This document shows positions 1,111 through 37,121 of a stretch of DNA of 43,164 nt, piece by piece. The DNA lies in the IMG/VR virus record IMGVR_UViG_3300045144_000099, positions 1 through 43,164 of that record. One strand, written 5' to 3'. Source of the DNA: a virus. Numbering within the stretch: position 1 is the first letter of the stretch; each line of letters opens with the position of its first letter. The translations under genes and the position numbers were made by a program. Below the pieces are notes generated by a model that was not told the DNA's origin, did not search any database, and worked only from the letters and a program-made list of their open reading frames with translations.

Positions 1111-1322
1111 GGCTGGCCTCCCGCGTTCGGGTCGGGAGCGGGCGCCAACGTCGGCGGCTTCCGCTTGCCGCGCGCGCCGGGCCGCTCGACAGGCTGCTGT
1201 TCGGCGATCAATTCATCGGCCAGTTTGAGGCCGTAGCGGCGCACGTCTGGGCTCTCGTCCGCGCACATGTCCCGGATGGTGATGAGGCGCATGCGCAGCC
1301 GCGCCCTCTCCGCATTCTCCAT
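1107..1322 (-). CDS. Small hypothetical protein (71 aa)
   Basis: Starts at the ATG at 1320-1322, preceded by an AGGAG ribosome binding site in GAGGAGTGTGTCATG, and overlaps the next gene by GTGA. The N-terminal half is helical and charged (MENAERARLRMRLITIRDM), and the C terminus is Pro-rich and basic. It lies between the repressor gene and the coiled-coil gene in the same leftward operon. I do not recognise the family. Confidence 0.7.
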   Translation of the reverse strand: MENAERARLRMRLITIRDMCADESPDVRRYGLKLADELIAEQQPVERPGARGKRKPPTLAPAPDPNAGGQP

Positions 1323-1399
1323 GACACACTCCTCTTGTGCGTGGTATGATGGCCACGCATGAGAGACCCCGCCCCGTCGCGGCCCACCCGCGCGGGGCA

Positions 1400-1624: not shown

Positions 1625-1804
1625 GGTGGGCCTCCTTCTTTCCGCGCGCCCACGCGCCTGCTCCCTGTCTCACCACGCCAGCCCAGGGTATCGCTCCGAG
1701 TCGCCGCCGGGTGCTCCGCAGAGCCACGCCAGGCCGCACGCCTCGATGCGCCGCAGGGCCAGTCCGAGCCAGAGAGCGAGGCGCGATCCCGCGCCGTCGT
1801 GTCC

Positions 1805-1833
1805 AGTGTAGGCCCAGTCACCCGGCGTGTCAA
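1805..1833 (-). promoter_or_regulatory. Sigma70-type promoter for the repressor operon
   Basis: On the minus strand there is a perfect -35 box TTGACA (1828-1833), a 17-nt spacer and a -10 box TACACT (1805-1810). Transcription would start near 1798, leaving a leader of about 170 nt before the repressor ATG at 1624. The word GAAAAATAAT lies one base upstream of the -35 box, where an UP element or operator would act. Confidence 0.65.
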
Positions 1834-1834
1834 G

Positions 1835-1844
1835 ATTATTTTTC
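1835..1844 (-). repeat. GAAAAATAAT element upstream of leftward -35 box
   Basis: This is the minus-strand copy of a 10-bp word that also occurs on the plus strand at 1976-1985. Each copy sits immediately upstream of the -35 box of its own promoter, 1 nt away here and 2 nt away in the other case. It could be an UP element for RNA polymerase or part of a regulator binding site. Confidence 0.5.
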
Positions 1845-1975
1845 TGCCGCTCTTGGCATGCCCCGTGCAAGGCCCGTCCCTGTGGCGCGCCGTGGGGGAT
1901 GACGGATCAACGGCAAAGTGCGAAATAATGCGAACTATGACAGGACCGAATCTGTAAGTACGCAGAATCACACAC

Positions 1976-1985
1976 GAAAAATAAT
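1976..1985 (+). repeat. GAAAAATAAT element upstream of rightward -35 box
   Basis: This is the plus-strand copy of the word described at 1835-1844, ending two bases before the rightward -35 box. A shorter relative (GAAATAAT) lies at 1922-1929. In a GC-rich sequence such repetition within 150 bp is unlikely by chance. Confidence 0.5.
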
Positions 1986-1987
1986 GC

Positions 1988-2015
1988 TTGCGCGTGGCCG
2001 TGGAGGGCATATAAT
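1988..2015 (+). promoter_or_regulatory. Sigma70-type promoter for rightward early genes
   Basis: -35 box TTGCGC (1988-1993), 16-nt spacer and a perfect -10 box TATAAT (2010-2015). The predicted start near 2022 gives a leader of about 35 nt before the ATG at 2056. The leader includes an AAGGAGAAGG ribosome binding site. Confidence 0.6.
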
Positions 2016-2055: not shown

Positions 2056-2367
2056 ATGGGGAGCTACGAGCAGAGTGCGGAGAGCGAGGCCCGGCGGCAG
2101 GCCGGATGCCTCCGGCACGACAGTGTGCCGGTGGTGGTGGATGCGGCGCATGTCGGGGCGCCAACGGAGCAGGGGGAGCCCTATCACTGGGAGACCCCGG
2201 GTGGTGCGCGATGCCGGTTCCCCGGCGCGTACCGTCGCGCCTGCGGCAATCCGGTATACGTCCACTCTCGGCGGCGCGTCATCGTGTCGCCCGAGTGGTG
2301 GGCGGCGCACGTGGCAGTTCCCGCCGCCGGGGCGGCACGGGCGCTGGCCGAGGCGATCCGGGTGTAG
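2056..2367 (+). CDS. Early hypothetical protein (103 aa)
   Basis: First gene of the rightward unit. I chose the ATG at 2056 because AAGGAGAAGGCA precedes it, although the frame stays open upstream to 1918. It starts just downstream of the TATAAT promoter. The protein is mixed-charge with three Cys (in ARCRF, RACGN and AGCLR) and a Trp-rich patch (VSPEWWAAHV), and ends in an Ala-rich helix. I do not recognise the family. By position it could be a Cro-like or early accessory function, but it has no visible helix-turn-helix. Confidence 0.6.
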   Translation: MGSYEQSAESEARRQAGCLRHDSVPVVVDAAHVGAPTEQGEPYHWETPGGARCRFPGAYRRACGNPVYVHSRRRVIVSPEWWAAHVAVPAAGAARALAEAIRV

Positions 2368-21320: not shown

Positions 21321-21868
21321 GCGCCCTCCTTGCTCGGCACGTAGTAGGCGCCGCCGATCTTGCGAGCGCCCCTCAGCTTGCGCCCGTGCGGCATGGGCAT
21401 GTAGTGCACACCGTCAACGACAAGCCCAGACTCGGCAGGCGCCGCCATATCGGGCGCCTTCTTGTCTACTTCTTCGGTCGCGGGCGCGGGAGTCGAACCC
21501 GCCTGCGCGGGGTATGAGCCCGCGGACACACCGCTTGTCGAGCCCGCAACGGGCCTGCACCGTAGGCCGTAGGTCGAGATCCAGTTGTTGGCCTCGGCAA
21601 GAGACGCGTGGGCCGGCACGAATATCGTCCCCGCGCGCATGACTATGATCCGTCCGCACCAGTGAATCCGGCAGGAGAGCAGAACGGCGTGCTCTTCGTG
21701 CTGGCGCGCGGGATCGATCTCCTGGACCGCGCCCTCGTCAGTCGGTGGCGGCTCCTTGCGTAGCCGCGCACGGAATGAGTCAAAGGCGCGGGCGATCGCT
21801 CCCGTGTCTCGCGCCTTGAATAGCTCCAGATCCATCCGATCCAGGCCAGCAACCGCTGCCGTCGCCAT
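21311..21868 (-). CDS. Hypothetical frame downstream of the capsid gene (start uncertain)
   Basis: From the ATG at 21866-21868 the frame encodes 185 residues. Residues 10-75 (MDLELFKARDTGAIARAFDS) and 79-103 (MRAGTIFVPAHASLAEANNW) look coding. The Ser/Gly/Ala/Pro linker 106-135 exactly overlies a tRNA-like gene on the same strand. The last 45 residues (MAAPAESGLVVDGVHYMPMP) look like a small independent gene starting at 21448. Either the tRNA is real and this is two genes, or one protein carries a fortuitous cloverleaf. I favour a real gene at least for 21311-21448. Confidence 0.45.
   Translation of the reverse strand: MATAAVAGLDRMDLELFKARDTGAIARAFDSFRARLRKEPPPTDEGAVQEIDPARQHEEHAVLLSCRIHWCGRIIVMRAGTIFVPAHASLAEANNWISTYGLRCRPVAGSTSGVSAGSYPAQAGSTPAPATEEVDKKAPDMAAPAESGLVVDGVHYMPMPHGRKLRGARKIGGAYYVPSKEGACH
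21478..21548 (-). tRNA. tRNA-Met-like (anticodon CAU)
   Basis: A 71-nt minus-strand cloverleaf. The acceptor is TGCGGGC/GCCCGCG (one T-G pair) with discriminator A. The D arm is GACA/TGTC with a GG-containing loop. The anticodon arm is GCGGG-CTCATAC-CCCGC, with U33, anticodon CAT (21514-21516) and A37. It has a 4-nt variable loop and a canonical T arm GCGGG-TTCGACT-CCCGC. CCA is not encoded. Position 9 and the variable loop are slightly off consensus. CAU could also be an Ile (lysidine) tRNA. It lies inside an open frame on the same strand. Confidence 0.7.
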
Positions 21869-36559: not shown

Positions 36560-37121
36560 GGGCGCCTATCCGCGGCTCGCACGACGTGGGATCAAGGCGC
36601 GGGTCGAGAGAGAGCGTCTCGGCAAGGACTCCCCTCCAGGGGGCGACGGCGTGCGCGTTGGTGTCGCGCCGTGTCGTCGCTGAGGGCGGGGCAGAGGACG
36701 CCCTACTCCGCCCGCCCCCGGAGGCGAGCTCCTGCCGAAACCCATGTTCTCCTGTAGCCTGCTCTCTTACGGGGCTGTGGTGTGGAACGCGGCCGTTCCG
36801 CCCTCGTGGCAGGTCAGTCGAGCGCATGTCGCCCGTGAACGCAAGGCGGTGAGTCGTGTCCGGCGTCCTGTTTCGGACCTCCCCCCGCAAGCAGACGCGA
36901 CGGCCTCGGGCGCACCATCGCCCGAGTTGCCGCAGCACCGTCGCACCGCACCGCCGCCACTTGTCATTCACGAACCGCCCGGCCACTTGTGCCCGTTCTT
37001 GGGGCCGTGCTGACAGCGCGTTGGCGCGACCGGGTACGCGCCGAACACAGGATACGAGCGCACGGGATCGGCTGTCAAGCGACCGGCGGATGGAGCGCAA
37101 CTCGGCGGCGTGGTCAGTCAT
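36552..37121 (-). CDS. Doubtful frame in the terminase leader region
   Basis: A 189-codon frame whose ATG overlaps the upstream methyltransferase stop (ATGA) and whose end overlaps the small terminase start by 8 bp, as real operon members do. The first 25 residues (MTDHAAELRSIRRSLDSRSR) look coding. The rest is Arg/Ser/Gly-rich with poor codon bias, and a good promoter lies inside it. It may instead be a short gene plus an untranslated leader with a GGGCGGG/CCCGCCC hairpin (36684-36717). Confidence 0.35.
   Translation of the reverse strand: MTDHAAELRSIRRSLDSRSRALVSCVRRVPGRANALSARPQERAQVAGRFVNDKWRRCGATVLRQLGRWCARGRRVCLRGEVRNRTPDTTHRLAFTGDMRSTDLPRGRNGRVPHHSPVREQATGEHGFRQELASGGGRSRASSAPPSATTRRDTNAHAVAPWRGVLAETLSLDPRLDPTSCEPRIGAHG
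37049..37078 (-). promoter_or_regulatory. Candidate promoter for the packaging and late genes
   Basis: Perfect -35 TTGACA (37073-37078), 18-nt spacer, -10 TATCCT (37049-37054). It lies about 490 bp before the small terminase ATG. A start near 37041 would give a long leader. It could drive terminase and virion genes separately from the DNA-modification genes upstream. Confidence 0.5.

Follow-up and report, generated by a model that had tools for sequence, protein, structure and literature searches.

Two identical A/T-rich words, GAAAAATAAT, lie in mirrored orientation directly upstream of the -35 hexamers of two promoter-like sites, and they probably serve as proximal UP-element subsites for a divergent pair of phage promoters of the sigma-70 type. 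A known kind of promoter element, occurring twice, accounts well for the pair, which is a new example of a known design. The window, meaning the whole stretch of DNA analysed, is a 43,164-base virus record of the IMG/VR type with 67% GC, and it encodes a terminase, a major head protein, a portal-like protein and two DNA methyltransferases. The two probable strong promoters place the likely control region of this unclassified GC-rich phage.

Putative Promoters and Flanking Genes

The left promoter, on the minus strand, reads GAAAAATAAT-C-TTGACA-17-TACACT, while the right promoter, on the plus strand, reads GAAAAATAAT-GC-TTGCGC-16-TATAAT (Table 1). These promoter-like sites, both within 1800-2020, point away from each other. 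The initial annotation had described the same words, hexamers and spacings, and direct inspection of the letters confirms the paired-word observation in each of these respects. The right promoter escapes a simple hexamer scan because of its weak -35. In both promoters exactly 24 nt separate the end of the word from the -10 hexamer, since the difference between a 1-nt and a 2-nt gap is offset by spacers of 17 and 16 nt. With the -10 hexamer numbered -12 to -7, AAAAATAAT spans -45 to -37 on both sides.

Table 1. Features of the putative control region and the adjoining genes.
Feature	Position	Strand	Remarks
Left word GAAAAATAAT, proposed proximal UP subsite	1835..1844	-	about -46 to -37
Left -35 hexamer TTGACA	1828..1833	-	
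Left -10 hexamer TACACT	1805..1810	-	site ranks 1 of 86,236
Right word GAAAAATAAT, proposed proximal UP subsite	1976..1985	+	about -46 to -37
Right -35 hexamer TTGCGC	1988..1993	+	3/6 consensus letters
Right -10 hexamer TATAAT	2010..2015	+	site ranks 10 of 86,236
HTH protein gene, 74 aa	1400..1624	-	presumed first gene after left promoter
Leader of left transcript, expected, 174 nt	1625..1798	-	start site inferred
103-aa ORF	2056..2367	+	presumed first gene after right promoter; good ribosome-binding sequence by eye

The 74-aa helix-turn-helix (HTH) protein, whose gene starts about 174 nt downstream of the expected start of the left transcript, matches the Pfam families HTH_31 and HTH_3 and has weak PHROG matches to transcriptional repressors. 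A repressor gene had been placed beside the promoters in the initial annotation; the HTH protein is a candidate lysogeny repressor at most. On the same strand, the HTH gene is followed by a 71-aa ORF and an exonuclease-like ORF. The predicted folding of the expected left leader is not unusual (z -0.40), no Rfam match was found, and the 103-aa ORF on the right has no family match. Within the first 6 kb, AT content peaks around 1901-2000, a 100-bp stretch with 48% GC. Between the promoters, at 1919-1934 (+), the hexamer TGCGAA also occurs twice, the starts being 10 bp from each other.

Proposed Proximal UP-Element Subsites

Both words supply an A/T-rich tract at about -45 to -37, and in each the A-tract (about -45 to -41) is oriented with its promoter and lies directly upstream of the -35 hexamer, as in the proximal UP subsite of sigma-70 promoters. 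Scored against the proximal UP consensus AAAAAARNR, the words match 6 of the 8 defined positions, a score that 151 of 86,312 positions reach. They differ from a complete bacterial sigma-70 UP element in that the distal A/T tract, sought at about -57 to -47, is absent upstream of both words; the words agree with the full consensus at 7 of its 15 defined positions, and alpha binding is putative.

The position agrees with a review that places the proximal element at -45 to -37 (PMC2613000), and the proximal A-tract has been described as covering -44 to -41 (PMC5664571). For a half UP element, the abstract of the latter paper reports little effect on transcriptional strength, and the paper also cites earlier work for a large proximal effect (PMC5664571).

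From the observed sequence, position, composition and recurrence of the words, we infer transcription from both sites, alpha binding and operon membership as follows. The sigma subunit of the host RNA polymerase would contact the -35 and -10 hexamers, while the C-terminal domain of alpha would grip the minor groove of the A5-tract at about -45 to -41 and thereby strengthen the promoter. This contact should matter most at the right promoter, whose -10 matches the consensus but whose -35 is poor. Leftward transcription would then serve the operon of the HTH protein, and rightward transcription a run of small ORFs.

Several phage promoters share parts of this design. The middle promoter Pm of phage Mu carries a partial UP element, with a proximal subsite and no distal one, and thus resembles the promoters described here; however, Pm depends on the activator Mor and has its subsite at -57 to -52, whereas here the word abuts the -35 (PMC4390567). 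In phage PY54, a UP-like AT-rich sequence likewise occurs in a region with divergent repressor promoters, but it is described there at the cro promoter, while the same word is found here at both promoters (PMC4488713). In phage T4, the early promoters and PuvsX combine UP elements with sigma-70 hexamers, and PuvsX is described as working in spite of a weak -35 thanks to its UP elements and a perfect -10 (PMC2988021). A poor -35 may be offset similarly at the right promoter. The passages on the T4 promoters mention no paired divergent arrangement (PMC2988021). Among papers listed for UP elements together with phage or divergent terms, none was recognised as describing this paired arrangement.

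Recurrence in Viral Contigs

A scan of viral contigs for GAAAAATAATnCTTG, a pattern with the 2-nt gap of the right promoter, returned at least 120 stretches, and the matches listed include 119 sites with enough sequence. At 46 of these 119 sites, a -10 hexamer (at least 5/6) stands at offset 25, whereas the 20 control offsets average 1.26%. Within these loci, again among the matches listed, a -10 follows 29 of 82 other 10-mers that have at least 9/10 A/T and an A5 tract, 29 of 560 with at least 9/10 A/T and no A5 tract, and 57 of 5848 upstream 10-mers with fewer than 7 A/T. The exact word has only a slight edge over other A-tract 10-mers: it is the A-tract, more than the particular word, that goes with promoters, and GAAAAATAAT is one good form of it.

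The association also depends on orientation. A control scan with the reversed word returned at least 120 stretches; counting one site per cluster among the matches listed, a -10 at offsets 24-26 occurs in 40 of 91 GAAAAATAATnCTTG clusters versus 12 of 99 reversed-word clusters, and a -35 (at least 5/6) in 58 of 91 versus 19 of 99. Most of these contigs are AT-rich, and in loci of at least 45% GC just 2 of 13 clusters among the matches listed have a -10. Sites of the form GAAAAATAATnnTTGAC in the loci retrieved have a -10 at spacers of 15-19 in 54 of 72 cases. The left form, with 1 nt before TTGAC, was found 0 times in the loci retrieved, which were mostly selected for other patterns.

Mirrored pairs of the word occur in 32 stretches of viral contigs, all in loci of 22-49% GC. 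In none of the 32 is each of the two words followed by a -35- and a -10-like hexamer, in a scan whose -35 test excludes the right side of the window itself; in one locus (25% GC), -10-like hexamers stand at offset 24 from either word, with no -35.

For promoter prediction in viral contigs, these counts suggest that it would help to consider as well whether an A-tract stands directly upstream of the -35. It is also conceivable, though on balance unlikely, that many unrelated phages share GAAAAATAAT-nC-TTGACA-17-TATAAT as an optimised promoter cassette, and that its variants at both arms of this control region would give the opposing promoters matched strength through the same alpha contact.

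Alternative Explanations

The initial annotation left the choice between UP elements and a shared regulator site. Position, composition, orientation and recurrence in viral contigs favor UP elements, and the regulator site is left with no specific support.

The words could be sites of a shared regulator that activates or represses both promoters, for which the adjacent 74-aa HTH protein is the obvious candidate; such an arrangement appears distinctly improbable. The 10-mers are identical, stand at identical distances from both -10 hexamers and adjoin the HTH gene, and the fixed position near -41 is one from which a class II activator could act. Yet nothing ties the HTH protein to the words, the word is not a palindrome, and it recurs before promoters in other viral contigs. 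Symmetric or repeated operator-like sites in 1790-2056 do not rise above chance: the best palindrome scores 5, as reached by 90 of 100 simulations, and the best 13-mer direct repeat (11/13) is equalled in 17 of 60. The initial annotation had reported a shorter copy between the promoters, AAATAATGC at 1923-1931, but this copy is at chance level. At up to one mismatch it has 2 matches, one of them within the right-hand word, where 1.41 are expected, and 40 of 100 shuffles reach 2; by eye, no -10 hexamer stands at the matching distance. The middle copy was thus rejected as a third site.

It is very unlikely that the words merely bend DNA, ease its opening or bind a host nucleoid protein, with no alpha contact. 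A-tracts do bend DNA, and AT content in the first 6 kb peaks around 1901-2000, but the closely fixed distance to the -10, together with the preference for one orientation in viral contigs, speaks more for alpha contact.

That the words are AT-rich islands which happen to precede unused promoter-like sequences is very improbable, even though the window holds 27 exact inverted 10-mer pairs within 200 bp, so that such a pair alone is not rare. In simulations of the local region, at least one such pair appears in 56 of 2000. The mirror arrangement is mainly a consequence of the same element serving two divergent promoters; what is unusual about the pair is its placement together with its composition. 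At up to one mismatch the window holds 2 copies of GAAAAATAAT, against a mean of 0.10 in 100 shuffles, one of which reached 2. The only two all-A/T 9-nt runs of the whole window lie inside the words, one at each promoter. By sigma-70 likeness, scored with an approximate matrix, the left and right sites rank 1 and 10 among 86,236 positions, and only these two of the best 200 sites have 9/10 A/T at the word position. A site scoring at least 9.68 with at least 9/10 A/T at that position arose in 0 of 400 Markov-simulated windows, odds that are overstated, as the simulation ignores the AT-richer composition of intergenic DNA relative to genes.

An invertible segment was also considered and rejected: both promoters lie outside the arms, so a flip would swap neither, and PF00239 and PF00589 have no match in this record, which is possibly a fragment.

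Relatives of the Window

Searches for relatives found none that cover 1800-2020. Two records are 99.98-100% identical to the window over the compared stretches and do not contain the control region. One near-identical record extends 198 nt beyond the right end of the window (43164) with bases that have no match in it; the window is therefore incomplete at this end.

Protein searches gave few matches. Queries with the HTH protein, the right-hand ORF and the exonuclease-like ORF retrieved nothing related from viral contigs; genome contigs hold no relative of the HTH protein, and phage records hold none of the right-hand ORF and only 3 weak matches to the HTH protein. The capsid protein retrieves 3 loci, two of them from the near-identical records. 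A 548-aa protein, used as a query on the assumption that it is the tail sheath, retrieves 13 loci, of which two are the near-identical records, and none in genome contigs.

Among the 11 distant relatives, no HTH_3 match exceeds the cut-off and one falls below it, so these genomes provide no test of word conservation. GAAAAATAAT at up to one mismatch is absent from 10 of the 11 and occurs in the remaining one as a single copy with 1 mismatch. Ten distant relatives were scored, two of them not to the last base, and none of their 20 promoter-like sites of at least 9 has 8/10 A/T or more at the word position. In Pseudomonas phage PS-1, a weak HTH relative and the only other phage whose control region was scored, the best sites between the two repressor genes lack such words.

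Other Promoter-Like Sites and Features

Two further sites have high sigma-70 likeness among the 86,236 positions. Rank 2 is TTGACA-18-TATCCT at 37054-37078 (-). Rank 3, at 1321-1350 (+), is ATGACA-18-TATGAT with a TG before the -10; transcription from this site would run rightward and in antisense to the HTH gene. The window has 11 TTGACA hexamers, near the 8.3 expected, and 10 of them are on the minus strand, which is the structural-gene strand. ARAGORN predicts a tRNA-Met (CAT) at 21476-21548 (-), overlapping a long minus-strand ORF.
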